A stretch of DNA of 64,000 nt from Hymenobacter yonginensis (lineage in GTDB: Bacteria; Bacteroidota; Bacteroidia; Cytophagales; Hymenobacteraceae): positions 992,001 to 1,056,000 of the forward strand of contig NZ_CP115396.1 in NCBI RefSeq assembly GCF_027625995.1, read 5' to 3'. Shown piece by piece: positions 433-60,060 of the stretch. The notes under the pieces were generated by a model. That model worked only from the letters and a program-made list of their open reading frames with translations, was not told where the DNA came from and made no database searches. The position numbers and the translations under genes were made by a program. How positions within the stretch are numbered: the first letter of the stretch is position 1; each line of letters opens with the position of its first letter.

Positions 433-537
433 GTCATGCTGAGCTTGTCAAAGCATCTCTACCGCTTTGTTGCAATGCCACTGATTAGTCAGAGGTAGAG
501 ATGCTTCGACTGCGGCTGCGCCTTCGCTCAGCATGAC
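433..537. repeat. Family A palindromic element between kdgK and eda
   Basis: Inverted repeat with outer arms GTCATGCTGAGC (433-444) and GCTCAGCATGAC (526-537) and inner arms AGCATCTCTACC (452-463) and GGTAGAGATGCT (494-505). The sequence words recur at 37087, 51299, 53791 and elsewhere, so this is one copy of a dispersed family. It fills most of the spacer between two genes of one pathway. Confidence 0.85.
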
Positions 538-565
538 AAATAATAACAACTGACAACTCCAACAA

Positions 566-1219
566 ATGCCCCGTTTCTCCGCTGCTCATATCCTCGAAAC
601 CGTGCTGGCTACGCCCATCGTGCCGGTGTTCTACCATGCCGATGCCGCGTACGCCCAGCGTATTGTGCAGGCCTGCTATGACGGTGGACTGCGCGTGTTT
701 GAGTTCACCAACCGCGGGGCGCAGGCCTTCGAGGTGTTCGGGCAGCTGATGGCCTTCGTGCAGCAAAACTGCCCGGCAATGCTGCTTGGCATCGGCACGA
801 TTTACACGGCTGCTGACGCCGAACGGTTCATTGCCGCCGGCGCCGATTTTGTGGTGCAGCCCTGCATCACAGCGGAGGTGGCGGAGGTGTGCCGCCGGCA
901 CGACACGCCCTGGCTGCCCGGCACCATGACCGTGCGCGAGGTGTACGAGGCCACGCAGCTGGGCGCGGCCATCGTGAAGGTGTTCCCCGGCAACGTGGTC
1001 GGGCCGGGCTTCATCAAGAGTCTGCGCGGCCCCATGCCGAGCGTGCCGCTGATGGTAACCGGCGGCGTAGAGCCCACTCGCGAGAGTCTGCGCGAGTGGT
1101 TTGGGGCCGGCGTGAACGTGGTGGGCATGGGCTCCCAGCTGTTCAAAAATGACGACCCCGCCGCCCTGAAAACCCTGCTCCGCGACCTGCTGGACTACCT
1201 GCCGACGCTGAAGAACTAA
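566..1219 (+). CDS. eda: 2-dehydro-3-deoxy-6-phosphogluconate aldolase / 4-hydroxy-2-oxoglutarate aldolase
   Basis: Class I TIM-barrel aldolase of the KDPG/KHG family, cleaving KDPG to pyruvate and glyceraldehyde 3-phosphate in the cytoplasm. The 217-residue length is normal for Eda. The catalytic Glu is in FEFTNR (E46), the phosphate/loop segment is GIGTIY, and the Schiff-base lysine is K138 in AIVKVFPGN; the C-terminal phosphate-binding GGV segment is also present. It follows kdgK after a palindromic spacer and precedes the importer by about 65 bp, so kdgK-eda-importer reads as a sugar-acid (uronate-derived KDG) catabolic set. The start ATG at 566 is the only sensible one. Confidence 0.93.
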   Translation: MPRFSAAHILETVLATPIVPVFYHADAAYAQRIVQACYDGGLRVFEFTNRGAQAFEVFGQLMAFVQQNCPAMLLGIGTIYTAADAERFIAAGADFVVQPCITAEVAEVCRRHDTPWLPGTMTVREVYEATQLGAAIVKVFPGNVVGPGFIKSLRGPMPSVPLMVTGGVEPTRESLREWFGAGVNVVGMGSQLFKNDDPAALKTLLRDLLDYLPTLKN

Positions 1220-1284
1220 GTGCTAGGCCGCCGTTGCTTGCCAACCTTGTACTATCTGCTCATCTCCATTCCCGCCCGCCTCCG

Positions 1285-2640
1285 ATGATACAAACTGTCC
1301 CTGCTACTTCGGCCCCCGTCACCGATGTGATTGGCAAATACCGCTGGACCATCTGTGGTCTGGTGTTCTTTGCCACCACCGTCAACTACCTCGACCGGGC
1401 CGTTATTTCCCTGCTCAAGCCCTACTTGGAAACCGAGTTCCGGTGGAACTCCGGCGACTACGCCAACATCGAAATTGCCTTCAAGCTGGCCTATTCGCTG
1501 GGCATGCTGGGCGTGGGCCGCATCATCGATAAGCTGGGCACCAAGATGGGCTACGCGCTGTCCACGTTTCTGTGGAGTCTGGCCGCCATCGGGCACGCGT
1601 TTGTGAGCAGCACGCTGGGCTTTTCGGTGGCGCGGGCGTTTCTGGGCGTCACGGAGGCCGGCAACTTCCCGGCCGCCATCAAAACCACGGCCGAGTGGTT
1701 TCCGCAAAAGGAGCGGGCCCTGGCCACCGGCATCTTCAACTCGGGCTCCAACGTGGGGGCCATTATTGCGCCGCTCACGGTGCCGCTCATTGCCGAGTCT
1801 ATCGGCTGGAAATGGGCCTTCGTGATTACCGGTGCGCTGGGCTTTGTGTGGCTGATTCTGTGGTTCGTCTACTACGAAGTGCCGGCCCGCCACGCCCGGC
1901 TCACCAAAGCCGAGTTCGACTACATCCACAGCGACGTGGACGATCTGGCCGCCGCGGCCATCACCAGTCAGCCCAAGGTGTCGTGGTTTAAGCTGCTCAC
2001 GTTTCGCCAGACCTGGGCCTTCGTGGTGGGCAAGTTCCTGACCGACCCGATCTGGTGGTTTTACCTGTTTTGGTTGCCCGACTTCCTCAACAAGCAATAC
2101 GGCCTCAAGGGTACCGAGGTAGCCCTGCCGGTTGCGGCCGTGTACGTGCTGTCGAGCATTGGCAGCGTGGGCGGCGGCTGGGTGCCGCTGAACTTCATCC
2201 GCAACGGCATGCCCGCCTTCAAGGCCCGCAAGCTCTCGATGCTGTTGATTGCGCTGTGCGTGTTCCCGATTGTGTTTGCCCAGTATTTGGGGCAGCTGAA
2301 TATGTGGCTGGCGGTGCTTGTGATTGGCATTGCGGCGGCGGCCCACCAGGCGTGGAGCGCCAACATCTTCACCACTGTGTCGGACATGTTCCCGAAGCGG
2401 GCCGTGGCCTCCGTGACCGGCATCGGCGGCATGGCTGGCGGGCTGGGCGGCATCCTGCTGTCGGCGCTGGTGCAGAAGCGCATGTTTGTGTACTACGAAA
2501 GCATCGGGCAGTTGCAGACGGCCTATTTCATCATGTTCTGGATTTGTGGCGGCGCCTACCTGCTGGCCTGGGGGCTGATGCACCTGCTGGCCCCGAAAAT
2601 GAAGCAGATCGACCTCGACGCCGAACCCGCCACCCGCTAA
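1285..2640 (+). CDS. exuT: MFS hexuronate/sugar-acid transporter (ExuT/GudP-like)
   Basis: Twelve-helix major facilitator of the anion:cation symporter (ACS) family, predicted to import hexuronates or aldarates across the inner membrane. The N-terminal stretch KYRWTICGLVFFATTVNYLDR is typical of ExuT/GudP proteins, with YLDRAVIS at the end of helix 1. An in-frame TTG lies upstream at 1234, but ATG 1285 gives a cytoplasmic tail of about 15-20 residues that fits the family. It lies just after eda and just before a small secreted protein (9 bp). Substrate (galacturonate, glucuronate or another sugar acid) is inferred from the kinase and aldolase genes beside it. Confidence 0.85.
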   Translation: MIQTVPATSAPVTDVIGKYRWTICGLVFFATTVNYLDRAVISLLKPYLETEFRWNSGDYANIEIAFKLAYSLGMLGVGRIIDKLGTKMGYALSTFLWSLAAIGHAFVSSTLGFSVARAFLGVTEAGNFPAAIKTTAEWFPQKERALATGIFNSGSNVGAIIAPLTVPLIAESIGWKWAFVITGALGFVWLILWFVYYEVPARHARLTKAEFDYIHSDVDDLAAAAITSQPKVSWFKLLTFRQTWAFVVGKFLTDPIWWFYLFWLPDFLNKQYGLKGTEVALPVAAVYVLSSIGSVGGGWVPLNFIRNGMPAFKARKLSMLLIALCVFPIVFAQYLGQLNMWLAVLVIGIAAAAHQAWSANIFTTVSDMFPKRAVASVTGIGGMAGGLGGILLSALVQKRMFVYYESIGQLQTAYFIMFWICGGAYLLAWGLMHLLAPKMKQIDLDAEPATR

Positions 2641-2649: not shown

Positions 2650-3114
2650 ATGAAAAAGCTTCTGTTACTGCTGGCGCTGCTGCTGCCGGTATTCACCTTC
2701 GCCCAAAGCAAAAAAGACCAGGCCGCCGCCAAAGAAGTGGAAGCCCTGGAGCGCCAGCGCTTCGAGGCCCAGGTGAAAAAGGACTACGCCGTGCTGGAAA
2801 AAGTCTTTGCCGACGACTTGGTGTACACGCACTCCAACGGCAAGCAGAACACCAAAGCTGAGTACATCCAGAGCATCCGCGAGGGGAAAAGCCAGTACGA
2901 CAAAATCGAGGTGGAGCTGCTGAACGTGCGCGCCTACAACGATGGCAAAGCCGCCGTAGTGAACGGCACCATCACCATCACGCTGCCCAACAAGCCCGAC
3001 GGCACGCCCAACCTGGCGCACCTCAAGTACGTGGTGGTGCAGGTGAAAGACCCGAAAAAAGGCTGGCAGGTGGTGCTCTGGCAAAGCCAGAAGCAGCCCG
3101 ATAAAGGCATGTAG
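2650..3114 (+). CDS. Secreted DUF4440/NTF2-like protein
   Basis: Protein of 154 residues with a clear Sec signal peptide (MKKLLLLLALLLPVFTFAQ, cleavage likely after AQ) followed by a single SnoaL/NTF2-like domain of the DUF4440 type: a helix rich in Glu/Arg (EVEALERQRFEAQVKKDYAVLEKVFADDLVYTHSNG), then KAEYIQSIREGK and a beta-sheet half ending in WQVVLWQSQK. Such domains form cone-shaped pockets and serve as enzymes or ligand binders; the role here is unknown. It starts 9 bp after the importer gene and may be co-transcribed with the sugar-acid genes. Its stop codon overlaps the first base of a palindromic element. Confidence 0.75.
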   Translation: MKKLLLLLALLLPVFTFAQSKKDQAAAKEVEALERQRFEAQVKKDYAVLEKVFADDLVYTHSNGKQNTKAEYIQSIREGKSQYDKIEVELLNVRAYNDGKAAVVNGTITITLPNKPDGTPNLAHLKYVVVQVKDPKKGWQVVLWQSQKQPDKGM

Positions 3115-3208
3115 CGCGAAGCCTTTGCTTCGCGCATTCCAGAACCAGCTACCCGGCCCGGCCACCCACTTGAACCTGCCGCTGCGCGAAGCAACGGCTT
3201 CGCGCTAC
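3111..3208. repeat. Palindromic element with GCGCGAAGC stem-loops
   Basis: Two small hairpins, GCGCGAAGC-CTTT-GCTTCGCGC (3114-3135) and GCGCGAAGC-AACG-GCTTCGCGC (3184-3205), are themselves arranged so that the outer ends GTAGCGCGAAGC (3111-3122) and GCTTCGCGCTAC (3197-3208) are inverted copies. The word GTAGCGCGAA links it to family B (30054, 40223, 55151). It occupies the spacer before fbp. Confidence 0.8.
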
Positions 3209-3258
3209 ACACCTGTCGCGGCACGTTCGGCGGGCTTTTCCGGACCTATTCTTTGCAT

Positions 3259-5972: not shown

Positions 5973-6039
5973 AACACCGCACGACGCAAAAAGGGCGCGT
6001 AGCTTTAAGCTGCGCGCCCTTTTTGTGTCGTGCGGTGTT
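5973..6039. terminator. Bidirectional intrinsic terminator
   Basis: Near-perfect inverted repeat of about 33 bp per arm (AACACCGCACGACGC... and its complement) with A-run and T-run (AAAAAGGGCGCG / CGCGCCCTTTTT) on the inner stem. It lies between the convergent aldehyde dehydrogenase and RNA ligase-like genes and can serve both. Confidence 0.85.
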
Positions 6040-13353: not shown

Positions 13354-13596
13354 GCGCGGGGTAGGCGGAGAAATAGCGAATAAACAATCAGCGTAACCGG
13401 TTTCTGCCCCCATGACCGGCCACTGCCAGGAAGGGTTGCGTGGGCTTTGAAAAAAGAACGACAAGCCGTGAGCTGTGAGCCACAAGCAACAGGCTGCAAG
13501 CTTTCGGCACATGCGTTTGCCGCTTACAGTTCATGACTTGCAGCTTAAAGCTGACAGCTTGCCGCTTCCTTCACGGCATGTGCTACATTCGCTCCC

Positions 13597-18804: not shown

Positions 18805-18915
18805 AGGCCGGAATTAGGTTGGGTTTGTGGCCGCCGGGAGCGTACTTCAACAGGGCGGCCAATAGTGCGCTGCCTGCGTCGCACGTTGTTATTTAGTATG
18901 TAGTAGTTAGATATA

Positions 18916-18986
18916 AGTATTGAGTAGTTGGACTTGTCAACTGATTGTTTTGCAGTGGTTTGATAAAGGTCTGGATACTCAATACT
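18916..18986. repeat. AT-rich inverted repeat
   Basis: Perfect 10-bp arms AGTATTGAGT (18916-18925) and ACTCAATACT (18977-18986) lie in a markedly AT-richer 247-bp spacer between the GT2 and cytochrome c genes. The spacer holds no gene. Confidence 0.55.
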
Positions 18987-19051
18987 CACGACTCAGTACT
19001 ATAAAATAGTAGCGGCAAAGCGACGGTTACCTGTCCTATTTCACTATATCG

Positions 19052-21097: not shown

Positions 21098-21106
21098 AAG
21101 GACAGA

Positions 21107-21192
21107 GGATAAGGGATAAAGGATTACGGACAACTTCGGTATCGTATCCCTCACCCTTCCATCCCTCATCCTATATCCTTCATCCCTTATCC
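21107..21192. repeat. Inverted repeat, purine/pyrimidine strand-biased
   Basis: Arms GGATAAGGGATAAAGGAT (21107-21124) and ATCCTTCATCCCTTATCC (21175-21192), 18 bp with one mismatch. It fills the spacer between the permease and SpoIIE-type phosphatase genes and carries strong purine bias on one arm and pyrimidine bias on the other. Confidence 0.7.
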
Positions 21193-21202
21193 TTACTCCT
21201 CC

Positions 21203-22438
21203 ATGCCCAACTCTACGCTCACCCCTGAAAAGCGCCTTTTCCTGAAAGACCGGGAACTAGGGGCCTTGCTGGAAATCACGCAGGCCATCAACCAGGACCA
21301 CAGTGAGGGGGCCCTCTACAAAATCTTCCAGTTCACGCTGCTCGGCCAGCTCAACATCCGGCGGCTGGTGCTCTACGTGAAGGAAGAGGGCCAGTGGCAG
21401 TGCGTGGTGTCGTTTGGGGCGATGCTACCCGATTTCCGGCGGGTTTCGCTGCCTGAATCGGTGCTGCGCGGCACGGGCGGGCAGCCGGCTGCCCTGGCCG
21501 GTATGGGCCTGGGTACGGAGTGGAGCATGCTGGAAGCGGTGATTCCGGTGGTGCGCAACGACGAGGTGGTGGCCTACGTGTTTATCGGCAACGTACACGA
21601 GGACTACGCCAGCGGCGAGGCGGCCAAATTCCTGGAAACACTCAGCAACATTCTGCTCGGCGCCATCGATAACCGCCGCCTGGGCCGGCAGCGGGTGGCG
21701 GCGGCTGCCATGCGCAAGGAGATTGAAATTGCGCAGGAAGTGCAGACCATGCTGTTTCCACGCAAGCTGCCCAACGACGCCCACGTGGCCGTGGCCGCGT
21801 CCTACGTGCCCCACACGGCCGTCGGTGGCGACTACTACGATGTGGTGGACATCGACGCCAACCGCTTCCTGTTCTGCGTGGCCGACGTATCGGGCAAAGG
21901 CGTGGCGGCATCGTTGCTGATGTCCAACTTCCAGGCCGGGCTGCGCACGCTGCTCCGCCAGCAGGTTGATCTGGCTACCATCGCGCAGGAGCTCAACAAC
22001 CTGATTTTCCGCAATGCCGGCGGCGACAAGTTCATCACCGTGTTCTTCGGTGTCTACGACCGCGCCAGCCGCGTGCTGCAATACGTGAATGCCGGCCACA
22101 ACGACCCCCTGCTAGTGTTCGACTCGGGCCAGGTGGAGCGCCTGCGCGAGGGCACCATCATGCTGGGCGTGATGGACGAGCTGCCGGGTCTGAAAGTGGG
22201 GGAGGTGCACATTCCCGGCCGCGCCCTGCTGCTCAACTACACCGATGGCCTGACCGAAGTGTTCGACGCCAACCAGGAAGAGTTCGGCGAAGAAGGCATC
22301 CTGGCTCTGCTGGCCCAGAACCGCTACTTGCCCCTCAAGCGCCTGCACGAAGAGCTGCTGGCCTCTATAAAAGCCTACAACGTCAACGGCAGCCAGTTCG
22401 CCGACGACGTGACGATTCTGAGCTGCCGGTTTAAGTAG
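21203..22438 (+). CDS. GAF-like sensor PP2C/SpoIIE serine phosphatase
   Basis: Cytoplasmic signalling protein of 411 residues. Residues ~20-165 form a GAF-like sensory domain; a coiled linker (RLGRQRVAAAAMRKEIEIAQEVQTMLFPRKLP) connects to a SpoIIE-type PP2C phosphatase. Metal-binding and active-site acids appear in AVGGDYYDVVDI, VADVSGKGVAA, NAGHNDPLLV, NYTDGLTEV and FADDVTILSCR. Such RsbU-like enzymes dephosphorylate STAS-domain anti-anti-sigma proteins; no kinase or STAS gene is next to it. It ends six bases before a strong palindrome and is convergent with the methyltransferase gene. Confidence 0.88.
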   Translation: MPNSTLTPEKRLFLKDRELGALLEITQAINQDHSEGALYKIFQFTLLGQLNIRRLVLYVKEEGQWQCVVSFGAMLPDFRRVSLPESVLRGTGGQPAALAGMGLGTEWSMLEAVIPVVRNDEVVAYVFIGNVHEDYASGEAAKFLETLSNILLGAIDNRRLGRQRVAAAAMRKEIEIAQEVQTMLFPRKLPNDAHVAVAASYVPHTAVGGDYYDVVDIDANRFLFCVADVSGKGVAASLLMSNFQAGLRTLLRQQVDLATIAQELNNLIFRNAGGDKFITVFFGVYDRASRVLQYVNAGHNDPLLVFDSGQVERLREGTIMLGVMDELPGLKVGEVHIPGRALLLNYTDGLTEVFDANQEEFGEEGILALLAQNRYLPLKRLHEELLASIKAYNVNGSQFADDVTILSCRFK

Positions 22439-22444
22439 GGCCAT

Positions 22445-22538
22445 AAGGCCGTCATGCAGAGCGGAGCGAAGCAGTTCGCCAGTGTGGTAGAATCAATACA
22501 CTAGCGAACTGCTTCGCTCCGCTCTGCATGACGGCCTT
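22445..22538. repeat. Long perfect palindrome between convergent genes (family A-related)
   Basis: Arms of 35 bp that match exactly: 22445-22479 (AAGGCCGTCATGCAGAGCGG...) and 22504-22538, loop 24 bp. The words GTCATGC and GAGCGAAGC tie it to family A. Transcripts from either side would fold into a very stable stem, so it may double as terminator. Confidence 0.85.
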
Positions 22539-22560
22539 GCGGCCTTAATCTTATGGGGCC

Positions 22561-24994: not shown

Positions 24995-25076
24995 TAGGGC
25001 TTAGGGCTTATTGCCTGGGGCTTAGGGCTTGGTGATAGGAGGTTAAGCTGATGAATAACCTAAGCCTTAAGCCCTA
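24995..25076. repeat. Imperfect inverted repeat TAGGGCTTAGGGCTT
   Basis: Arms TAGGGCTTAGGGCTT (24995-25009) and AAGCCTTAAGCCCTA (25062-25076), 14 of 15 paired, plus another GGGCTTAGGGCTT word in the loop. Fills the polymerase/Wzz-like spacer. Confidence 0.65.
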
Positions 25077-26217: not shown

Positions 26218-26310
26218 GTGTAATCGGGCATTACATGTAGCATAGGCTTTAGCCTGTGCTGGCTTCAGCTCCAACTCGCTTTCCAAAAAGGAAGAACTAT
26301 AGAGTGGACT

Positions 26311-27858
26311 GTGAAAATCTGTAGGCTGGTGGCATTCCGCCTTTTGCACGGGGCGGGCAGGCGGAAGTCTGGCACCGGCGGAAGCCTATGCTACATTCCT
26401 TGTAATTTCGCGGCCCATCCTCTATTCCCGGCCTGTATCAAACGCTTTTTCGGAAATATCAGCTTCGTGGTGCTGCTCAACCTGCTGGTGAAGCCGGGCT
26501 GGGTGATGGTGGAAAGCCTGGTGCAGGACCGACTGGGCCACGCGGCGTTCGGCACGTTCACGGCGTTGTTCACGCTGGCCACCATCCTGGCGCAGGTATC
26601 CGACCTGGGTACCACCCAGCTCACCACCAAGCGCGTCGCCGCCAACCCCGACTTCCTCACCGAGTACTTCCCGACGCTGCTGCCCCTGAAGGGCTGGCTG
26701 TCGGGGCTGTTTCTGTTGGTTACGCTGGGTATCGGGTGGCTGCTGGGCTACCGCGGCCATACGCTCACGCTGCTCGGCCTCACGGCGGGCGGTCTGCTGT
26801 TGGCGCAGTACACGCTGTTTCTGCGGGGCGTGCTGCAGGCCCATCAGCGCTTCAACACCGATGCACTACTGTCGGTGCTGGAAAAGCTGCTGCTGCTGGG
26901 GCTGGTGCTGCTGCTGGTGCCCATCGGCATTTCCCTGGACCGCTACGTGGGCGCCCGCACGCTGGCCGTGGGCTTCACGTTTGTGGTGCTCTACGGCGTC
27001 ATTGCGCGGCTCTACGGGCGGGTGCGGTTCCGGCTGCAGGTGGGCCAGGCCCGCACCGTGCTCAAAGCCAGTCTGCCGCTGGCCTTCATTACGCTGGTAT
27101 ATGGGCTGAATGAGCGGATTGACATGCTGATGCTGGAACGGCTGGTGTCGGCGCAGGAGGCCAGCTACTACGCCGCCTCCTACCGCTGGCTGGACACCAT
27201 GATGATGTACCTCTGGACGGTGCTGCCGCTGTTCTTCGCCAAGTTCGCCCACGCCACCGGCCGGCCCGAGGAGCAGAAGGACCTGCTCTGGTTCGGGCAG
27301 CGCGTGGTCACGGTGCCCATGCTGCTGATCTGCGGCTTTGTGCTATTTCGGGGCGAAATCCTGTTCTGGCAGTTCACGCACAGCACGCCGCCGGAAGTGG
27401 CCCGCATGGCGCTCTGCCTCAAGATTCTGTTCGTGAGTGTGCTGGTGCACGCCTTCTTCGCCATCTACAGCACTCTGCTCACCAGCACCAACCACGAGCG
27501 GCCGGTGAGCTGGCTGGTGGGCCTGAGCATCGTCCTGAACGTGGGCCTGAACCTGGTGCTGCTACCGCGCCTGGGGGCGGTGGCTGGCGCCATCAACACG
27601 CTGGTGTGCGCCGTATTTGTGTCGGTGGGCTACCTGTGGCTGGTGCATCGGCGCACGGGCGTGCCGGTGCCGTGGGCGTGGCTGGCGCGGCTGGCGCTGG
27701 CCTTCGGGCTGCTGTGCGCCGTGTGGGCGGGCCTGCAAATGGGCCTGCAGCTGCACTGGCTGTTAGAGTCGGTGCTGGCCGGCCTGAGCTTCGTGGCCAT
27801 CCTGTTCCTGACCCGCATCGTGCGCGTAGCCGAGCTGCGGCAGTTGCTGGGGAGGTGA
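26311..27858 (+). CDS. Wzx-type polysaccharide flippase
   Basis: MATE-like membrane protein with about fourteen helices, predicted to flip undecaprenyl-linked oligosaccharides. Conserved-looking parts are NISFVVLLNLLVKPGWVMVESLVQDRLG, TLVYGLNERIDMLMLERLVSAQEASYYAASYRWLD and LSIVLNVGLNLVLLPRLGAVAGAI. The start is uncertain. The open frame begins at GTG 26311, but the first 42 residues are Arg/Gly/Cys-rich and unlike a flippase; the natural N terminus (IKRFFGNISF) begins at 26437, where the codon is ATC, not ATG. It is divergent from the Wzz-like gene. Confidence 0.82.
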   Translation: MKICRLVAFRLLHGAGRRKSGTGGSLCYIPCNFAAHPLFPACIKRFFGNISFVVLLNLLVKPGWVMVESLVQDRLGHAAFGTFTALFTLATILAQVSDLGTTQLTTKRVAANPDFLTEYFPTLLPLKGWLSGLFLLVTLGIGWLLGYRGHTLTLLGLTAGGLLLAQYTLFLRGVLQAHQRFNTDALLSVLEKLLLLGLVLLLVPIGISLDRYVGARTLAVGFTFVVLYGVIARLYGRVRFRLQVGQARTVLKASLPLAFITLVYGLNERIDMLMLERLVSAQEASYYAASYRWLDTMMMYLWTVLPLFFAKFAHATGRPEEQKDLLWFGQRVVTVPMLLICGFVLFRGEILFWQFTHSTPPEVARMALCLKILFVSVLVHAFFAIYSTLLTSTNHERPVSWLVGLSIVLNVGLNLVLLPRLGAVAGAINTLVCAVFVSVGYLWLVHRRTGVPVPWAWLARLALAFGLLCAVWAGLQMGLQLHWLLESVLAGLSFVAILFLTRIVRVAELRQLLGR

Positions 27859-27887: not shown

Positions 27888-28031
27888 CTGTCATCCTGAG
27901 CCTGCGAAGGACCTTCTCACGCCAGCACATAATTGATAAAAGGAGCTTTTTGCTGAGGTTTGCTTGGGTTGAATCGAAGTCCGCTGAGTCGTTCCAGACT
28001 GATAAGGTCCTTCGCAAGCTCAGGATGACAG
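27888..28031. repeat. Palindromic element, CATCCTGAGC/GAAGGACC type
   Basis: Arms of 31 bp, 27888-27918 (CTGTCATCCTGAGCCTGCGA...) and 28001-28031, 29 of 31 paired. The word TCATCCTGAGC...GAAGGACC is a repeat type I recall from many environmental Bacteroidota genomes (unverified here). It fills the spacer between the flippase and GT4 genes. Confidence 0.85.
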
Positions 28032-29208: not shown

Positions 29209-29220
29209 GGATGCAGCATG

Positions 29221-29322
29221 GTGTAGAGACTTGTATTCGCGTCTCGTCGTTGAACGACCGTAGCCGCGCCGTCCGTTTAAACAACATCACCAACGATAAG
29301 ACGCGAATACGCGTCTCTACAC
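29221..29322. repeat. Palindromic element GTGTAGAGAC...GTCTCTACAC
   Basis: Arms of 24 bp, 29221-29244 and 29299-29322, 22 of 24 paired, with the word TATTCGCGTCT. Its sequence is unlike family A or B. It sits 12 bp after the GT4 stop codon. Confidence 0.8.
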
Positions 29323-29362
29323 CGCCCCAAGCCTACAACGTCACCGTTCCCGATTGAAAACC

Positions 29363-30018: not shown

Positions 30019-30159
30019 AGAACGTCCTGCTGCATATTCGGCGCAGCACGAGCAGTAGCGCGAACTTTGTAGTTCGCGCTACTGTCCGCACAACGCTCTA
30101 GCGACCCTCGCTGCAACATCAGCCCGCGAGATGCTTCGCTGCGCTCTGCATGACGTTCT
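30019..30159. repeat. Degenerate family A element with a family B hairpin in its middle
   Basis: The right arm 30113-30159 (GCAACATCAG...GCATGACGTTCTT) is a clear family A arm; the left end AGAACGTC at 30019 is its remnant partner. Between them is a perfect 13-bp stem, AGTAGCGCGAACT (30054-30066) and AGTTCGCGCTACT (30071-30083) with a TTGT loop, which is family B. The nesting suggests insertion of one element into another. Confidence 0.75.
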
Positions 30160-31345: not shown

Positions 31346-31466
31346 CCGGTCCGGCGGCTTTTTCAGCCGTCGAGCCGGTCGTCGTTAAAGCGGTCTAGGA
31401 GCGGCATCAGGCTGGTGCGTCAGCACGCCACGACCGGTCCGACGGCTGAAAGAGCCGCCGGACCGG
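31346..31466. repeat. GC-rich palindromic element CCGGTCCGGCGGCT
   Basis: Arms of 27 bp, 31346-31372 and 31440-31466, 26 of 27 paired, with further partial pairing inward (GCCGGTCGTCG / CACGACCGGTC). A separate sequence family. The 299-bp spacer also holds low-complexity AAGCAC/CAAGCACC words just before tatD (31563-31598). Confidence 0.8.
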
Positions 31467-32367: not shown

Positions 32368-32381
32368 TGGCGGCTGACAGG

Positions 32382-32533
32382 GCTAGAAAACTAGTTCCCC
32401 TCCTTGGAAAGGAGGGGTTAGGGGTGGTTGATAATCGTTGAACAACAACTAGAATCTAGTTCTAAAAACCGTTCGGCCATCCATCAACCACCCCTAGCCC
32501 CTCCTTTCCAAGGAGGGGAACTAGTTTTCTAGC
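32382..32533. repeat. Long palindrome with 51-bp arms and nested hairpins
   Basis: Arms 32382-32432 (GCTAGAAAACTAGTTCCCCT...) and 32483-32533, 50 of 51 paired, loop 50 bp. Each arm itself contains a hairpin CCCCTCC-TTGGAAA-GGAGGGG, and CTAG sites recur at both ends and in the loop. This is the longest inverted repeat of the window. Confidence 0.9.
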
Positions 32534-32596
32534 TTTGTAGCCGGCAGCCGCCCTGCCTACCTTGCTCCTCCAACCCAACCCAATCCTGCCCCGCCC

Positions 32597-34699: not shown

Positions 34700-34725
34700 A
34701 GCAGGTTTTGCCGCCGATGTGATCC

Positions 34726-34872: not shown

Positions 34873-35553
34873 ATGAAAATCCTGCTGATTGAAGATCATG
34901 CTGAGCTGGCTGCCAGCATTGCGGGCTACCTCACGCAGGAGCACTACATCTGCGAAGTGGCGGCCACCTTCGACGAGGCCCGCGAAAAGCTTGTCCTGTT
35001 CACCTACGACGTGGTGCTGCTCGACATCATGTTGCCCGACGGCAACGGCATCAACCTGCTCAAGCTGCTGCGTAAGGAAGGCGTGGATAGCAGCGTCATC
35101 ATCATCTCGGCCCAGAACGCGCTGGACTTCAAGCTCACCGGCCTCAGCGAAGGCGCCGACGATTACATCACCAAGCCCTTCCCGCTGCCCGAGCTGCACG
35201 CCCGCATCAAGGCCATCATGCGCCGCCGCAGCCCCCAGAAAAACAACGTCCTCACGTTCCAGGACCTCACCGCTGACCTCGACTCATTGGAATGCCGCGT
35301 GAATGGCAAGCTGCTCAGCCTCACCCGCAAGGAAACCAACCTGCTGCTCTACTTCATCCACAACAAAGGCCGCATGCTGAGCCGCCAGGCCATTGCCGCC
35401 CACCTTTGGGGCGACTACACCGACAACCTCGACAGCGTGGACTTTGTATACCAGCACGTGAAAAACCTGCGCAAGAAAATCACCGACGCCGGCGGTCAGG
35501 ACTACATCAGCACCGTCTACGGCTTCGGCTACAAATTCAACGCCCCGGAATGA
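34873..35553 (+). CDS. OmpR-family response regulator
   Basis: Protein of 226 residues: receiver domain (1-~120) with acidic pocket E7/D8, phospho-acceptor D51 in LLDIMLPDG, S79 and K101 in DDYITKPF; then a winged-helix DNA-binding domain (about 130-224) ending ISTVYGFGYKFNAPE. It is followed by the cognate-looking histidine kinase gene after a palindromic spacer, and by two transporters and a porin. By position it likely controls that uptake module. Confidence 0.93.
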   Translation: MKILLIEDHAELAASIAGYLTQEHYICEVAATFDEAREKLVLFTYDVVLLDIMLPDGNGINLLKLLRKEGVDSSVIIISAQNALDFKLTGLSEGADDYITKPFPLPELHARIKAIMRRRSPQKNNVLTFQDLTADLDSLECRVNGKLLSLTRKETNLLLYFIHNKGRMLSRQAIAAHLWGDYTDNLDSVDFVYQHVKNLRKKITDAGGQDYISTVYGFGYKFNAPE

Positions 35554-35642
35554 TGGCGGAGTGGTGGATGAGTGAATTTGTGAGTGGTGAGTTTGACGAC
35601 GACAAGCGGCACAACTAGTAGCCTGTAACATCCGCTCCGTAG

Positions 35643-35730
35643 CCCAGGGTTTAAACCCTGGGTTAGTGAGTCATCAGGCGAAGCAGCGGAAATGCTTCGA
35701 CTTTGTTGCACTCCGCTCAGCATGACGTTC
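35643..35730. repeat. 20-bp perfect palindrome plus partial family A arm
   Basis: CCCAGGGTTTAAACCCTGGG (35643-35662) is self-complementary; it is followed at about 35693-35730 by a family A right arm (ATGCTTCGAC...CGCTCAGCATGACGTTC). A similar GGCTTAAACCC hairpin occurs inside the element at 37087. Confidence 0.7.
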
Positions 35731-35784
35731 TTTTCCCCAGTTCAACCAGTCCTCCAGTCCAGTCATCTACCTATCCACTATCAA

Positions 35785-37062: not shown

Positions 37063-37086
37063 TAGCTAGTGGGGAAAATAGTAAGA

Positions 37087-37232
37087 ACGTCATGCTGAGC
37101 TTGCCGAAGTATCTCGCATGCTGATGTTGCTAAATCGTCGAACGACAACCGCTTTACTAGCCCGGGGCTTAAACCCTAGGCTAGCGAAGCAACATCAGCA
37201 CGCGAGATGCTTCGGCAAGCTCAGCATGACGT
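37087..37232. repeat. Full-length family A palindrome
   Basis: Arms 37087-37130 (ACGTCATGCTGAGCTTGCCG...) and 37189-37232, 42 of 44 paired. The loop holds a second hairpin with GGGGCTTAAACCCTAGG words. It occupies the middle of a 305-bp spacer between histidine kinase and transporter genes; the remaining 130 bp before the transporter is AT-richer and shows no gene. Confidence 0.88.
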
Positions 37233-37367
37233 CCTTTATGAAGTGGTCAGCGGCGCAAAATTTCATAGAAACCATAACATTCCCTCAAAATTCCTTCAAG
37301 ATTGAGTTCGTCATTTGCTTACATCAACCAGTAAGTAACTACTCACTAGCCGAAAACTGCCTCGCTC

Positions 37368-38732
37368 ATGCCTACCGCCGTTTCTCCTGCCGACCTGACT
37401 ACTACCGCGCCGCCGGCCGGGGTGGGGCGTGGGGAGCGGGTATCGCCCCGGCGGCTGCGGGCTATTTTGAGCGGCTCGGTGGGCAACCTAGTGGAGTGGT
37501 ACGACTGGTACGTTTTCTCCTCGTTTTCCCTGTATTTCTCGGCCTCGTTTTTCCCGGCCGGCGACACCACGGCCCAGCTGCTCCAGACGGCTGGCATCTT
37601 CGCGCTAGGCTTTCTGATGCGGCCTATCGGGGGCTGGATGTTCGGGCGCATTGCCGATAAAGTGGGCCGCAAGCAGTCCATGACGCTGTCGGTGCTGCTC
37701 ATGTCGCTGGGCTCGTTGCTGATTGCCCTCACGCCCACTTACCAGACCGTGGGCATTGTGGCGCCGGTGATGCTGCTCACGGCGCGGCTGCTGCAGGGCC
37801 TGAGCGTGGGCGGCGAGTACGGCGTGTCGGCCACTTACCTGGCTGAAATGGCGACTTCGCGCCGCCGCGGCTTCTACTCCAGCTTTCTGTACCTCACCCT
37901 TATTGGGGCCCAACTGCTGGCCCTCGGTATTCAGTTGGTGCTGCAGCGGGTGCTGGAACCAACCCAGCTGCTAGCCTGGGGCTGGCGTATTCCCTTCGTG
38001 ATTGGGGCGTTGCTGTCGGTTGTGGCCCTGTACTTGCGCCACAACCTCGACGAAACCGCCGCCTTCACGGCCCAGCCCGAAACCACCGAAGACCAGCGGG
38101 GCAGCCTGCGCGTGCTGGCCCGCCATCCGCGTGCCGTCTTCACGGTGGTCGGCCTCACGATGGGCGGCACGCTGGCGTTCTACACGTTCACCACCTACAT
38201 GCTCAAGTTTCTGGTAAACACCGCCCACATGACCCCCGAGGCCGCCACCAACGTGTGCTTTCTGTCGCTGCTGGTGTTTGCCGCCTTGCAACCCGTGTTC
38301 GGGGCGCTGTCGGACCGCATCGGGCGGCGGCCCTTGCTGATCTTCTTCGGGGTGGGCGGGGCGCTGGGTACGGTGCCGCTGCTCACGGCCCTCAGCCAGA
38401 CCACCTCGCCGCTGGCCGCTTTCGGGCTGCTGCTGCTGGCTTTGGTGATTGTGAGCGGCTACAGCGGCATCAACGTGATAGTGAAAGCCGAGCTGTTTCC
38501 GACGGATATCCGGGCTTTGGGCATCGGGCTGCCGCACGCCCTGACGGTGGCCGTATTCGGCGGCACGGCCGAGTACCTGGCCCTCTGGAGCAAGGGCGTC
38601 GGGCACGAGGCCTACTTCTACTGGTACATTGCCGGCTGCATCGGCGTTTCGCTGCTGGTGTTCCTGGGCATGGCCGAAACCACCAGAACGTCCCATCTCA
38701 ACACTGATCCGGCAGCTGACCAGCTGGCTTAG
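37368..38732 (+). CDS. Metabolite:H+ symporter (MHS family MFS)
   Basis: Major facilitator of 454 residues in the MHS family, which includes KgtP and ProP and imports organic acids and osmolytes. Diagnostic sequence: SGSVGNLVEWYDWYVFSSFSLYFSASFFP in helix 1, FALGFLMRPIGGWMFGRIADKVGRK after helix 2, and GGEYGVSATYLAEMA. Twelve helices are evident. Located between a two-component system and DctA, it probably carries a dicarboxylate or tricarboxylate such as 2-oxoglutarate, though substrate is inference only. Confidence 0.88.
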   Translation: MPTAVSPADLTTTAPPAGVGRGERVSPRRLRAILSGSVGNLVEWYDWYVFSSFSLYFSASFFPAGDTTAQLLQTAGIFALGFLMRPIGGWMFGRIADKVGRKQSMTLSVLLMSLGSLLIALTPTYQTVGIVAPVMLLTARLLQGLSVGGEYGVSATYLAEMATSRRRGFYSSFLYLTLIGAQLLALGIQLVLQRVLEPTQLLAWGWRIPFVIGALLSVVALYLRHNLDETAAFTAQPETTEDQRGSLRVLARHPRAVFTVVGLTMGGTLAFYTFTTYMLKFLVNTAHMTPEAATNVCFLSLLVFAALQPVFGALSDRIGRRPLLIFFGVGGALGTVPLLTALSQTTSPLAAFGLLLLALVIVSGYSGINVIVKAELFPTDIRALGIGLPHALTVAVFGGTAEYLALWSKGVGHEAYFYWYIAGCIGVSLLVFLGMAETTRTSHLNTDPAADQLA

Positions 38733-38825
38733 CTGTCATTCTGAGCTTGCGAAGGACCTTAGCATGTCCGTCTCACACCTGTGTTTTTCATGGTGAGAAG
38801 CGCCTGAGTAAGCTCTGGACGACAG
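38733..38825. repeat. Degenerate palindrome (CTGTCATTCTGAGC type)
   Basis: CTGTCATTCTGAGCTT at 38733-38748 pairs 13 of 16 with AAGCTCTGGACGACAG ending at 38825; a nested CTCAC/GTGAG hairpin lies between. A decayed relative of the 27888 element, starting right at the end of the stop codon. Confidence 0.6.
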
Positions 38826-38879
38826 GTACAGCTCACCAACTCCCTCTAAACTGACTTCCCATCCCATCCATCCCACCTC

Positions 38880-40222: not shown

Positions 40223-40347
40223 GTAGCGCGAACTTTGTAGTGCGCGTCCCCGCGCCGCTCAAACCAACTCTACGCCGCCAGAACCGTCTCCGCGCCGCCA
40301 CCATTACCCGAACGACGCGGGGAGGCGAACTGCAAAGTTCGCGCTAC
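40223..40347. repeat. Family B palindrome (GTAGCGCGAACTTTG)
   Basis: Arms of 32 bp, 40223-40254 and 40316-40347, 29 of 32 paired, with the words GTAGCGCGAACTTTG and TCCCCGCG. Same family as 55151 and the short copy at 30054. Confidence 0.85.
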
Positions 40348-40428: not shown

Positions 40429-41892
40429 ATGACAACTTTTCTACGCCTGAAGCTGGCGGCGACGTTGCTGCTGCTGGCCCCGCTGACCCACGCCCAGATT
40501 ATCGTGCCACCCACCACCGGCAAGGCCCCGAATCCGGCTTCGGCAGCGGCCCCGGCACCCGTGCCGGCCCCCGCCAAATCGGCCCCGTACGCGGGCGGCA
40601 TGAAAATCAGCATCTCGCCCGACGGCTCCAAATACGTGCGCATCATGACGGCCCACCAGCTGTGGGTGCGCTACAACGAAAACAACTCGGGCACGCTCTC
40701 GGCCGAGGAAGAGCCGCAAAGTGACCAGATTGACTTTGGTATCCGCCGCTCGCGGGTGCTGCTGGTGGCGCAGTTGAACCCGCGCTTTCTGGTGGTCACG
40801 CAGTTGGGCATCAACGGGCAGAGCACCATTGCGGGCGGTGCGCCCGGTGAACCGACCGGCCCCGGCAAAAAGCCGCAGTTCTACATCCACGACGCGCTGG
40901 TGGAGTACAAGGTGAGCCAGTATATGAGCGCCGGCGGCGGCCTGCATTACTACAACGGCATCTCGCGCCAGACCAGCTTCGCCGCCTTTTCGCTGATAAC
41001 CCTCGACGTGCCCGGCGTGCAGTCGCCCTCCCTCGACGCCATCGACCAGACCGGCCGGGGCATTGGGGTGTACGTGCGCGGGCGGGTGAAGAAGTTCGAC
41101 TACCGGCTGTCGGTGAATGACGCGTTTCGCACGAATACCGGCAGCACGCCGGCTACGCTGGCTACCAACGTGGCGCAGTTCAACCCGCGCAGCCGGGGCA
41201 AAATCTGGCAGGGCTATTTCGATGTGGAGCTGCTGGATAAGGAGCTGAACCTGGTGCCGTTTGCGGTGGGCAATTACCTTGGGGCCAAGCGCGTGTTCAA
41301 CATCGGGGCGGGCTTCCTCTACCACGCCGGCGGCCTCTACTCGCGCCCCCTGGACAACCCCACGCCGCAGCCCGCCCGCGCCTGGGACATTCCCTACAAC
41401 CGCCACAATATGCGCGTGCTCTCAGCCGACATCTTCTTCGATACGCCCGTAGACACCACCGCCCGCAACCAGACCGCCTTCACCGTGTACGCCGCCGCCT
41501 ACGACTACCGCATGGGCCCCAACTACGTGCGCTACGGTGGCACCCTAAACCCCGGCACCGGCTCGGCGGCATTGCGTGGCAATTCGGTGCCCATGCTCGG
41601 CACCGGCACCGCCCAAACCGTCCAGACCGGCTTTCTGCTGCCCAAAAAACTACTCGGCCCCAAAATACGCCTGCAGCCCTACGCGGGCTACATCCACGGC
41701 CGCTACGAGGGCCTGCGCCGCACCGACGGCCGCCTGCAGGACGTGCACATTCTGGACGGCGGCGTGAACGTGCTGCTCGACGGCCACCAGGCCAAAATCA
41801 CGCTCAACTACCGCGCCCGCCCTGATTTCACCAACATCGACAACCTCAACTACCGCCCCGAGGCCACCATGCAGCTCCAGGTGATATTGTAG
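40429..41892 (+). CDS. Outer-membrane porin
   Basis: Protein of 487 residues with signal peptide (MTTFLRLKLAATLLLLAPLTHAQ), a short Pro/Ala-rich segment, then a beta-barrel-like domain of alternating hydrophobic strands (HQLWVRYNENNSG, IDFGIRRSRVLLVAQLNPRFLVVTQLGING, FYIHDALVEYKVSQYMSAGGGLHYYNG) and a final strand AKITLNYRARPDFT...PEATMQLQVIL. The start resembles phosphate-selective/OprO-type porins. It follows dctA, so it probably lets the same organic acids through the outer membrane. Confidence 0.82.
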   Translation: MTTFLRLKLAATLLLLAPLTHAQIIVPPTTGKAPNPASAAAPAPVPAPAKSAPYAGGMKISISPDGSKYVRIMTAHQLWVRYNENNSGTLSAEEEPQSDQIDFGIRRSRVLLVAQLNPRFLVVTQLGINGQSTIAGGAPGEPTGPGKKPQFYIHDALVEYKVSQYMSAGGGLHYYNGISRQTSFAAFSLITLDVPGVQSPSLDAIDQTGRGIGVYVRGRVKKFDYRLSVNDAFRTNTGSTPATLATNVAQFNPRSRGKIWQGYFDVELLDKELNLVPFAVGNYLGAKRVFNIGAGFLYHAGGLYSRPLDNPTPQPARAWDIPYNRHNMRVLSADIFFDTPVDTTARNQTAFTVYAAAYDYRMGPNYVRYGGTLNPGTGSAALRGNSVPMLGTGTAQTVQTGFLLPKKLLGPKIRLQPYAGYIHGRYEGLRRTDGRLQDVHILDGGVNVLLDGHQAKITLNYRARPDFTNIDNLNYRPEATMQLQVIL

Positions 41893-42511: not shown

Positions 42512-42549
42512 AAAAGCCCGCGCCTTCTCCGGAAGGCGCGGGCTTTTTT
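42512..42549. terminator. Bidirectional terminator
   Basis: AAAAGCCCGCGCCTT pairs with AAGGCGCGGGCTTTTTT around a CTCCGG loop; lies between convergent BLUF and TonB-receptor genes. Confidence 0.92.
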
Positions 42550-47728: not shown

Positions 47729-47750
47729 GGGAGGAGCTATGAGTCCACAA

Positions 47751-47791
47751 AAAAACGGCCGCTTCCTGACTATCAGGAAGCGGCCGTTTTT
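47751..47791. terminator. Bidirectional terminator
   Basis: AAAAACGGCCGCTTCCTGA (47751-47769) and TCAGGAAGCGGCCGTTTTT (47773-47791) are perfectly complementary with a three-base loop; serves uvrA2 and tetR. Confidence 0.95.
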
Positions 47792-47808
47792 GTGCGTCTG
47801 GGGAGCGG

Positions 47809-50214: not shown

Positions 50215-50299
50215 TGAAGTGATGAGGCAAAAAGTGATGAGGAATTCTCGTCATCTGCTTGCTGCCTGTCACCTCATCTCTTCATCACCTCATCACTAA
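50211..50299. repeat. Imperfect inverted repeat of GTGATGA words
   Basis: GTGATGAAGTGATGAGGCA overlapping the paoA stop is partly complementary to GCCTGTCACCTCATC and TCATCACCTCATCAC before paoB. Low complexity but foldable; fills the paoA-paoB spacer. Confidence 0.55.
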
Positions 50300-50303
50300 T
50301 TCC

Positions 50304-51287: not shown

Positions 51288-51298
51288 GAACCGCCGGA

Positions 51299-51396
51299 AC
51301 GTTATGTAGAGCGCAGCGAAGCATCTCGCGTGCTGACGTCAGGTCACCAGTACAACATCAGCACGCGAGATGCTTCGCTGCGCTCTGCATGACGTT
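51299..51396. repeat. Family A palindrome between paoB and paoC
   Basis: Inner arms of 29 bp match perfectly: 51308-51336 (AGAGCGCAGCGAAGCATCTC...) and 51358-51386; outer ends GTTATGT/GCATGAC pair partly. Confidence 0.9.
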
Positions 51397-51429
51397 CTAT
51401 TCGAACAAGGCCTAGCACCAAACACCAAC

Positions 51430-53772: not shown

Positions 53773-53790
53773 GTAGAGCTGATGATCTAA

Positions 53791-53893
53791 AGCACGTCAT
53801 GCTGAGCTTGTCGAAGCATCTCGCGTGCTGATGTTGAAATAGTAACTCAATGTCAGCACGCGAGATGCTTCGCTCCGCTCAGCATGACGTGCT
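53791..53893. repeat. Family A palindrome between paoC and xdhC
   Basis: Arms of 41 bp, 53791-53831 (AGCACGTCATGCTGAGCTTG...) and 53853-53893, paired except for four bases in the middle (CTTGT against GGAG). Confidence 0.88.
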
Positions 53894-53947
53894 TTTGTCT
53901 GTCTTCAGGCCAACGCCGCCGTTTCTCTATCCGTACTGCTGTGTATC

Positions 53948-55144: not shown

Positions 55145-55150
55145 ACGCAC

Positions 55151-55236
55151 AGTAGCGCGAACTTTGCAGTTCGCGTCCCCACGCCGTCAGATTCGTTCAA
55201 CGGCCTGGGGACGCGAACTACAAAGTTCGCGCTATT
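55151..55236. repeat. Family B palindrome between xdhC and mocA
   Basis: Arms of 31 bp, 55151-55181 (AGTAGCGCGAACTTTGCAGT...) and 55206-55236, 29 of 31 paired. Confidence 0.88.
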
Positions 55237-55297
55237 GCTTTTTCAGACCTCCGACTTTATAGCCGGATAGCCATTCATCCGGCTACCTACCACCCCC

Positions 55298-58018: not shown

Positions 58019-58038
58019 TAGAGGAAGTAGAAGAAACC

Positions 58039-58161
58039 AGAACGTCATTCAGAGCGAAGCGAAGAATCTCGCGTGCTGACGTTGTGATAGTAGCCCTGTC
58101 GTAGGATTACCATTGCAACATCAGCACGCGAGATTCTTCGCTTCGCTCTGAATGACGTTCT
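58039..58161. repeat. Family A palindrome with 41-bp perfect arms
   Basis: Arms 58039-58079 (AGAACGTCATTCAGAGCGAA...) and 58121-58161 are exact complements, and pairing continues inward with one mismatch (GACGTTG against CAACATC). It separates convergent DinB and amidohydrolase genes. Confidence 0.92.
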
Positions 58162-58181
58162 GCTTTATAACGGTCTGGTTT

Positions 58182-59837: not shown

Positions 59838-59841
59838 GCAG

Positions 59842-59849
59842 CGAAGGTA
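59842..59849 (-). promoter_or_regulatory. -7 box TACCTTCG very close to start (minus strand)
   Basis: TACCTTCG, seven of eight to TAnnTTTG, ends four bases before the ATG at 59837; transcription would begin at or inside the start region, pointing to a very short leader or another start. Confidence 0.35.
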
Positions 59850-59908
59850 CGGGCGGCCACGGAATTGGACTTGTTCTGTGAAAAGCTTGCTAACCCAAAT
59901 TGCGGAGT

Positions 59909-60060
59909 AGCCGCGTAGCGGCGAGAGGTCTGTATTCTTGACCTAATGAAGACATACAAGCCGCGTAGCGGCGGCAGATTTGCCGGCAAACCTGTCGCCG
60001 CTACGCGGCTTTTGTCAGGGGGCAACTGCTGTGCTACACACCTGTCGCCGCTACGCGGCT
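59909..60060. repeat. Four-copy CCGCGTAGCGGCG element (two direct, two inverted)
   Basis: AGCCGCGTAGCGGCG occurs at 59909 and 59959, and its complement TCGCCGCTACGCGGCT at 59995 and 60045. The two forward copies and the two reverse copies are each 50 bp apart. Each unit is itself a small hairpin (GCCGC-gta-GCGGC). Located between the amidohydrolase and the next minus-strand gene. Confidence 0.88.

Follow-up and report, generated by a model that had tools for sequence, protein, structure and literature searches.

Many spacers between genes of Hymenobacter yonginensis contain a long inverted repeat. The corresponding gap of a close relative often has another palindrome in it, which suggests that position is retained and sequence exchanged. 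The stretch of DNA analysed, here called the window, comprises 64,000 nucleotides of contig NZ_CP115396.1 (positions 992,001 to 1,056,000). Most of its palindromes fall into repeat families, as CGTC-type or GTAG-type REP doublets; a second sort consists of degenerate words of 7-8 nucleotides. The reading we tentatively prefer is that the gene retains a downstream hairpin, of whatever sequence, with interchangeable sources. The observations behind it are the location of the elements, their families, the association of some of these with transposases, the swap statistics and a co-occurrence with short-loop hairpins that is below expectation.

A preliminary description of the window had placed inverted repeats at 22 positions. 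Fifteen of these hold one at a score of at least 45 (433, 3111, 21107, 22445, 27888, 29221, 31346, 32382, 37087, 40223, 51299, 53791, 55151, 58039 and 59909). Four more carry weaker stems. In mononucleotide shuffles of the element's own spacer, a stem as good is found in 1/200 for 18916 and in 0/200 for 24995, for 50211 and for 30019, where the best stem lies at 30053-30084. The remaining three are weak by the same measure (23470, 7/200; 35643, 23/200; 38733, 4/200), although the last two carry recognisable family motifs (35639, 35726 and 38735). That list lacked three short-loop hairpins at convergent junctions (5973-6039, 42512-42547 and 47748-47794) as well as the palindrome of a divergent spacer (26235-26396). 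An Rfam search of the window at gathering scores returned nothing beyond tRNA-Ser. Genes were called with our own codon model, so their starts are approximate; element classes and thresholds were chosen after inspection of the data.

The palindromes do sit in spacers and not in genes, as had been described. At a score of at least 50 there are 17 in spacers and none in genes, so that palindromes are not as frequent inside genes, and block-wise dinucleotide shuffles of the window yield none; at 45 the counts are 19 in spacers and four in genes, with one in the shuffle. The description that almost every co-directional spacer carries one was too strong: among spacers of at least 60 bp, 13/36 are occupied at score 45, or 17/36 when the four weaker palindromes are counted in. 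By the same length and score limits, 5/6 convergent and 1/5 divergent spacers are occupied. Occupancy by one palindrome per junction holds within the window at score 45, and the estimate of at least six families is exceeded, the recurrent motifs numbering at least nine.

The first large group has GTAG at one end of the palindromic unit, and its units form inverted pairs. These doublets lie at 3105..3214 (GTAGCGCGAAGC), at 26235..26396 in a divergent spacer (GTAGCATAGGC; homologous in the relative G001, with a different element in the relative G003), at 29220..29323 (GTAGAGACG; homologous in G003, missing from G001), and at 40223..40347 and 55150..55237 (both GTAGCGCGAACTTTG, the latter homologous in both relatives). 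Single GTAG-type REPs occur at 30053..30084 (GTAGCGCGAACTTTG) and at 35635..35670 (GTAGCCCAGGG); the latter is not significant as a palindrome, and its spacer also holds a CGTC motif at 35726. The families are multicopy: GTAGAGACG has 46 motif matches within 795 kb in G001 and 17 within 400 kb in G003. In relatives, repeats similar to five of the window families adjoin RAYT-like or Y1 transposase genes. Doublets of GTAGAGACG lie on both sides of RAYT-like (PF01797-related) genes in G001 (locus L111) and G008 (L171), whose proteins score 22.6 bits, just under, and 25.3 bits, over, the Pfam cut-off of 23 bits. The CCGGTCCGACGGC family adjoins a RAYT-like gene in G014 (L174); its window counterpart is the CCGGTCCGGCGGC doublet at 31346..31466, where G001 has an unrelated palindrome and G003 none at score 45. 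By our reading of loci L166-L185, palindromes of the same family lie on both sides of the gene in 11/20, downstream only in seven and on neither side in two; the window families GTAGCATAGGC and GTAGCGCGAAGC were not found flanking a RAYT-like gene in the loci read. The earlier suggestion that many REP- or MITE-like elements use the same niche is thus well supported by multicopy families, several of them like transposase-flanking repeats. The GTAG families are probably copied by RAYT or Y1 transposases.

The GTAG end, inverted doublets, many copies and extragenic location near gene 3' ends are features in common with the GTAG-tagged REPs, their doublets (BIME or REPIN) and the RAYT transposases described in PMC2817692, PMC3733652 and PMC6006769, as is the flanking of a Y1 transposase gene by some Hymenobacter families. 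Unlike the systems covered there, many families coexist here, and different ones occupy orthologous gaps. GTAG repeats are listed in PMC3733652 for Proteobacteria, Cyanobacteria, Chloroflexi and the PVC group, with Bacteroidetes not among them, and PMC6006769 reports a Bacteroidetes subclass (2.6) whose flanking structures are atypical and recur at other places. In the open-licence literature no earlier description of Hymenobacter REPs or intergenic palindromic repeats was found. These sources treat such repeats only briefly for the phylum, in which Hymenobacter has several RAYT-like genes, every one accompanied by a repeat family of its own.

CGTC-type elements, with a CGTC or TGTC tag and inverted doublets, form the second large group. 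One such palindrome occupies a co-directional spacer at 447..510, with motifs at 433 and 537. Doublets lie at 22436..22547 (convergent junction) and 53789..53895, both homologous in G001 and G003, at 27888..28031 (with a homologue in G003 and an element scored different in G001) and at 37083..37236. A weak palindrome at 38733..38825 carries a CGTC-type motif at 38735, and a convergent palindrome at 58034..58166 is homologous in G003, with a different one in G001. CGTC-tagged REPs are known, Bacteroidetes included (PMC3733652), and are similar in the tagged end, inverted doublets, 3' location and lack of a flanked transposase; they are described as four consensus families with stems of 8-9 bp, whereas the paired arms in Hymenobacter are imperfect and much longer (e.g. 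43-64 nt). In 38 Y1 loci, nine of them outside the genus and each spanning about 1-1.5 kb from the gene, a CGTC motif was found on both sides in none and on one side in three. When genes with CGTC repeats on their flanks were sought, to see whether one gene recurs, 23 were found; similar pairs among them occur only between different genomes, at 96-99% identity, and therefore represent the same gene. The CGTC families too appear to have been copied around the genome. Two further elements are a CTAGTTCCCCTCC palindrome at 32377..32538, where G001 has a GTAGAGACG doublet and G003 an element scored different, and a compound palindrome of CCGCGTAGCGG units at 59889..60080, in a gene-to-gene spacer of 248 bp that measures 58 or 57 bp and is palindrome-free in G001 and G003.

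Word palindromes are inverted by construction, and their internal periodicity is distinct: 23 strongly skewed non-REP arms match themselves with z values of 7.0 at lag-7 and 9.1 at lag-8. A shared word vocabulary was not found among 71 skewed palindromes, the top 7-mer occurring in 7/71, equal to the maximum of 50 shuffles (mean of the shuffle maxima 4.7). The G-rich arm comes first in 57/58 skewed palindromes with loops longer than 8 nt and in 64/71 when shorter loops are allowed. At codirectional gaps this order could be explained by G-poor leaders before start codons; such leaders cannot explain the convergent gaps, where the G-rich arm is first in 12/12. In the window the sort is represented at 21106..21193 (other palindromes in the same gap of G001 and G003), by weak examples at 18901..19001 (closely similar in G001) and 24995..25076 (GGGCTTA words; the G001 array is longer), and by an imperfect palindrome below score 45 in the divergent spacer at 13457..13580, whose flanking aligned blocks lie 10 bp apart in G001. 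Tandem 7-8-nt intergenic words that pair across the two strands, separated by varying distances, are likewise described for Geobacter metallireducens in PMC2700814, which reads the arrays as regulator binding sites only as a hypothesis; the Geobacter classes can be aligned, unlike the Hymenobacter words, which are degenerate and change with the gap and with the species. The TAACTGA heptamer arrays of PMC4679880 are also tandem 7-8-nt words in intergenic DNA, and are reported as direct repeats mostly before start codons.

Exchange between species was measured at orthologous junctions of G001 and G003, taking 195/207 conserved junctions with spacers over 700 bp omitted; Fisher tests used the 187 junctions at which one spacer or both reach 30 bp. 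With homologous elements excluded, both genomes have a palindrome, but not the same one, at 20 codirectional junctions where 7.2 are expected (odds ratio 47.5). The rule by which elements count as 'different' has its faults: on inspection by eye two of the 20 are doubtful (junctions 139 and 290, a shared family and an element added beside a conserved hairpin), and four more oppose two CGTC-type elements (137, 197, 278 and 282). The excess persists without the two doubtful cases (18 versus 6.2 expected), without all six (14 versus 4.4) and when both spacers are at least 80 bp (17 versus 6.7). In the window the rule scored the hairpin at 5973..6039 as 'same' in G003 and misjudged the similar one in G001 as 'different'. 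Codirectional and convergent junctions together comprise 45 'same', 28 'different' and 11 one-only cases. Syntenic spacers that share a sequence under neutral decay would speak against a role, and these make up part of the junctions only. Across 185 junctions, 22 pairs of short-loop hairpins are homologous and one is not; for REPs the numbers are 30 and 12.

Occupancy depends on the type of junction. Several of these tests have the discovery set (G001, G003 and the window) in common. In spacers of 30-500 bp, a palindrome or short-loop hairpin is present at 117/126 convergent, 270/540 codirectional and 19/128 divergent junctions. Both kinds occur together at 11/126 convergent junctions, fewer than expected, with an odds ratio of 0.089 when a family-blind detector is used; in a replicate of 41 other loci one junction has both against 10.4 expected. 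The deficit is weaker in spacers of at least 200 bp, so lack of room accounts for part of it. REPs lie a median of 14 bp from the upstream stop codon and 52 bp from the next start. A stem-loop soon 3' of a stop codon recalls the E. coli inverted repeats treated as intrinsic terminators in PMC6060812, from which most Hymenobacter REP and word elements differ in having no U-tract: TTTT adjoins the 3' edge of 21/130 CGTC or GTAG elements, 1/29 word palindromes and 19/43 terminator-like hairpins. Because U-tracts are rare, canonical intrinsic termination is rejected as the general role. The promoter motif TAnnTTTG is no commoner after REP (13/129) or word elements (2/23) than at hairpin-free junctions (33/275), by a measure that is insensitive (24/111 hairpin-free divergent gene pairs) and uses rough start calls.

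In the reading we prefer, a long stem-loop 3' of many genes, supplied interchangeably by REP doublets, word palindromes or a short-loop hairpin, would be useful to the transcript end. It may protect the end from 3'-5' decay; relative levels within gene clusters, or an aid to termination without a U-tract, are other conceivable benefits. A gap would then lose one hairpin mainly once another had replaced it, and close species would keep the gap occupied but with differing sequences. That the gap needs a stem-loop, no matter which, with hairpin replacing hairpin under selection for position and not sequence, is possible, though less than probable; successive mobile REP families and self-generating word palindromes would on that account serve as disposable 3'-end modules. 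The earlier proposal that a stem-loop is selected at junctions draws support from palindrome status being kept while sequence swaps and from the low co-occurrence with short-loop hairpins. Against it stand the rare U-tracts, the near-neutral decay, the lack of promoter-motif excess and the presence of elements inside trp and xdh gene clusters. These last points favour a neutral account, which fits nearly as well and which we consider quite conceivable, if short of probable: many REP and repeat families insert heavily and are tolerated only after stop codons and off promoters, permissive gaps are near saturation, and elements come and go without function. Base pairing in the conserved copies decays in a nearly neutral way, 1652 pairs having undergone 100 pair-breaking single changes, 35 changes to G-U, 65 restoring changes, four from mismatch to mismatch, 21 compensatory changes and 13 other double changes. 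Compensatory change is a weak signal at best (21/34 double changes), some of it perhaps sub-family exchange. Some other species lack elements at the same trp and xdh gaps, and the co-occurrence deficit eases where there is room. The swap test cannot tell selection from a situation in which some gaps are permissive and others are not. From the 28 different and 11 one-only junctions we estimate that permissive gaps have an occupancy of about 0.84 at equilibrium, a level that by itself produces many double-different junctions. A functionless niche is less easily reconciled with the scarcity of empty counterparts (11 against 28), with the recurrence of the co-occurrence deficit in the replicate set, and with the lower divergence of stems (8.2%) than of loops (13.0%) in conserved elements, whose flanks diverge by 11.3%.

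Repeated hits on the same gaps could also arise if REPs target existing hairpins or terminators and displace them. At one junction, A 301397-301463 and B 209119-209271, the same TTTTTACAA stretch is preceded by a short-loop hairpin and by a CGTC-type palindrome; at three codirectional junctions one genome has a short-loop hairpin where the other has a REP, and REP elements enclosing another hairpin exist. Such a hot spot is nevertheless unlikely, since many swapped gaps show by eye no obvious remnant of the other palindrome and short-loop hairpins are mostly conserved. Exchange of whole intergenic alleles by recombination with relatives is less likely still. In G007 a trpD-trpC stretch has 95% identity to G001, compared with 83% between the uvrA-like genes of G007 and the window, so segments may move between species; this leaves unexplained why the alternative alleles carry palindromes too, and in the window the aligned blocks that border swapped gaps are about as similar to G001 on one side as on the other.

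It has long been asked whether REPs are parasitic or serve as useful parts of gene 3' ends. Paired natural experiments are available in close Hymenobacter species, with a different palindrome in each at one junction, or a junction with and without one, in clusters whose function is known, trp and xdh among them; function can thereby be measured directly against a neutral niche. The short-loop hairpin at the convergent junction 47748..47794 is conserved in G001 and G003; another convergent junction has its hairpin at 42512..42547. Between xdh-type subunit genes, the CGTC-type doublet at 51297..51397 has as its counterpart GTAGAGACG in G001 and a CGTC element in G003 that has the outer arm in common, yet is scored different. 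The word palindrome at 50218..50297, between two xdh-type subunit genes, is near-identical in G001, and the orthologous gap in L004, L014 and L050 carries palindromes of other words.

The palindromes of the window lie in spacers rather than in genes, as the preliminary description had it. A stem scan found 23 inverted repeats scoring at least 45, of which 19 are in spacers; at a score of at least 50 there are 17 in spacers and none in genes, and block-wise dinucleotide shuffles of the window gave none at that score. In 395 kb of G001, the nearest genome for comparison, the same threshold returned 99 spacer, 5 genic and 2 mixed palindromes, and shuffles returned none. All gene calls come from our own codon model, in which stops are firm and starts approximate. 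Fifteen of the 22 positions first noted are strong and four are weaker yet beyond shuffles of their own spacer; three are weak. The claim that almost every codirectional spacer carries a palindrome was too strong. Counting spacers from 60 bp upwards at score 45, occupancy in the window is 13/36 for codirectional, 5/6 for convergent and 1/5 for divergent junctions, and in the G001 sample 52/142, 33/46 and 9/50. Convergent gaps are the most often occupied in both.

Several kinds of element share these gaps. When 266 spacer palindromes were clustered, 79 fell into one big cluster and 34 into a second, 92 stayed single and the remainder formed several small clusters; 12 of the 17 window members belong to clusters of at least three. 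The cluster of 34 mixes GTAGAGACG with CTAGTTCC-type elements; clusters are therefore not pure families. A set of 339, enlarged with more of G001 and of the similarly close relative G003, comprises by our own rules 187 multicopy elements resembling repetitive extragenic palindromes (REPs), 43 terminator-like elements, 30 word palindromes and 79 others. At least nine motifs recur in the window: CGTC-type, GTAGAGACG, GTAGCGCGAACTTTG, GTAGCGCGAAGC, GTAGCATAGGC, GTAGCCCAGGG, CCGGTCCGnCGGC, CCGCGTAGCGG and CTAGTTCCCCTCC. The GTAG and CGTC tags and the inverted unit pairs correspond to those of the two REP superfamilies in PMC3733652.

PF01797 (Y1_Tnp), a Pfam family to which REP-associated tyrosine transposases (RAYTs) are related, is present in 41 of 59 genomes searched, with two matches in G001; all eight proteins checked match Y1_Tnp, three just below the curated cut-off. 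One of the G001 genes (locus L111) is flanked on both sides by GTAGAGACG doublets, and a transposase gene of another relative (G008, L171) is arranged likewise. Read by eye, 20 further loci (L166-L185) carry same-family palindromes on both sides in 11 cases, downstream only in seven and on neither side in two. Repeats that resemble window families, again by eye, are CCGGTCCGACGGC on both sides at L174, GTAGCGCGGACTTTG at L181, a TTGCGCGGACTTTG variant at L179, a GTAGCCCAGGG-like repeat at L168 and, upstream only, a CCGCGTAGCGG-type repeat at L100. CGTC motifs flank the transposase gene on both sides at none of 38 Y1 loci (nine outside the genus) and on one side at three. This agrees with the statement in PMC3733652 that CGTC repeats have no dedicated transposase.

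Degenerate words of 7 or 8 nt make up many of the singletons, such as those at 21106-21193 and 50218-50297. Self-match in 23 strongly skewed non-REP arms reaches 0.44 at lag 7 (z 7.0) and 0.47 at lag 8 (z 9.1), where shuffles give 0.31; a search for a vocabulary common to the skewed word palindromes found none. Of 58 word-type palindromes at Hymenobacter loci whose loops exceed 8 nt, 57 have the G-rich arm first; the figure is 64 of 71 once shorter loops are allowed, and 12 of 12 at convergent gaps (loops above 8 nt), where leader composition cannot explain the order. In the gap separating two xdh-type genes (50215-50303; genes named by Pfam), palindromes are found in the window, in G001 and in three more distant species, among which the words differ. 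Precedents are the tandem octamers that Geobacter metallireducens carries in pairs on opposite strands (PMC2700814) and TAACTGA arrays (PMC4679880); the latter paper also refers to a proposal that units of 7 nt promote polymerase slippage.

The window belongs to Hymenobacter, species of that genus being the first matches of a protein it encodes, and the G genomes are presumably of the same genus. The window is mostly collinear with G001 over 4140-62118, in blocks of 85-97% identity; its uvrA-like gene (named by eye) shares 94% identity with that of G001 and 93% with that of G003. The G001 (495 kb) and G003 (400 kb) sequences have 207 conserved junctions in common, of which 195 were classed. 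The 134 codirectional ones comprise 63 with no palindrome, 31 with the same, 10 homologous but sub-threshold in one genome, 20 different and 10 occupied in one only. The 29 convergent ones comprise 14 same, 8 different, 5 none, 1 in one only and 1 homologous; the 32 divergent ones, 30 none, 1 same and 1 different. With homologous elements left out, different palindromes in both genomes occur at 20 codirectional junctions against 7.2 expected (Fisher p 7e-11), in a swap test that presumes alike gaps, whereas gaps clearly vary in permissiveness. On re-reading of the paired sequences, two pairs are doubtful and four are CGTC-type against CGTC-type. The counts become 18 against 6.2 (p 6e-10) without the doubtful pairs, 14 against 4.4 (p 5e-8) without all six, and 17 against 6.7 (p 5e-9) without the doubtful pairs where both spacers are at least 80 bp. 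Since gaps are unequal, the test shows that the status of having a palindrome is kept, and says nothing on why. Short-loop hairpins are mostly conserved (22 homologous pairs, 1 not); REP pairs divide into 30 homologous and 12 not. Exchanges also occur among the REP, word and other classes, and at three codirectional junctions a short-loop hairpin in one genome faces a REP in the other.

The trp cluster (genes named from Pfam families, trpA by eye) illustrates these exchanges. The trpE/G, G/D, D/C, C/F and trpA/aroF gaps are scored different between G001 and G003, those at C/F and trpA/aroF with a CGTC-type element in both. What fills the trpE/trpG gap varies over ten genomes: a CGTC element in G001, CGTC-type units in G002, a GTAGCCCAGGG-type element in G003, word palindromes in G007 and G009 and an unscored CTCCCCTCC hairpin in G011; in G004, G005, G008 and G010 the gap is 20-74 bp long without a scored palindrome. 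The trp region of G007 may have recombined, as its trpD-trpC stretch (L186, G007:C3:1703500-1714500) is 95% identical in DNA to G001 and its uvrA-like gene only 83% identical to that of the window. The trpB/trpA gaps of G010 and G011 (L190, L193) carry longer-word palindromes, CGCAGAGG- and CGCAGTG-like.

Elements and short-loop hairpins share a gap more rarely than chance would give. In G001, G003 and the window (gaps 30-500 bp, hairpins overlapping an element discarded), 126 convergent gaps have an element only in 49, a hairpin only in 57, both in 11 and neither in 9; the codirectional counts are 168, 92, 10 and 270. A family-blind count with hairpins permitted in loops gives, in the same order, 27, 71, 19 and 9 at convergent gaps (odds ratio 0.089), and 16, 42, 1 and 11 (odds ratio 0.016) at a further 41 loci, 40 of them titled Hymenobacter and one Solirubrum; each of these lies around a relative of the same gene, and they are not independent. 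Within strata of spacer length, the odds ratios come to 0.079 for convergent and 0.133 for codirectional gaps. The two nevertheless occur together commonly in spacers of at least 200 bp, so that part of the effect is a matter of space. Only seven long-loop palindromes were found at 21 other Bacteroidota loci.

That a hairpin of whatever sequence is kept, for its function, in the gap after a gene is a reading we hold tentatively, at a little less than an even chance. A crowded neutral niche that tolerates insertions is only slightly less likely, and would account for most of the following observations: base pairs of conserved copies decay near-neutrally, U-tracts at elements are rare, a promoter motif is not enriched downstream of elements, and elements separate closely linked biosynthetic genes. 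On the other side, stems differ less (8.2%) than loops (13.0%) or flanks (11.3%). Near-neutral decay does not exclude function, because a long stem tolerates single mismatches. Checking the swap list left our estimates for both readings unchanged. REP doublets, RAYT association and 3' bias are ordinary, being known in kind; the degree, and different palindromes in the same gaps of close species, are unusual.

Two stretches of the window lack an equivalent in the collinear part of G001. One, the 5 kb at 33867-38873 after tRNA-Ser (33728-33816), holds genes for a RibD_C-domain protein and a transporter, together with two that by eye only resemble a response regulator and a kinase; within it, the 37063-37478 junction is conserved in G003. 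The other includes a 487-aa open frame (40429-41892) with no Pfam match at 1e-5.
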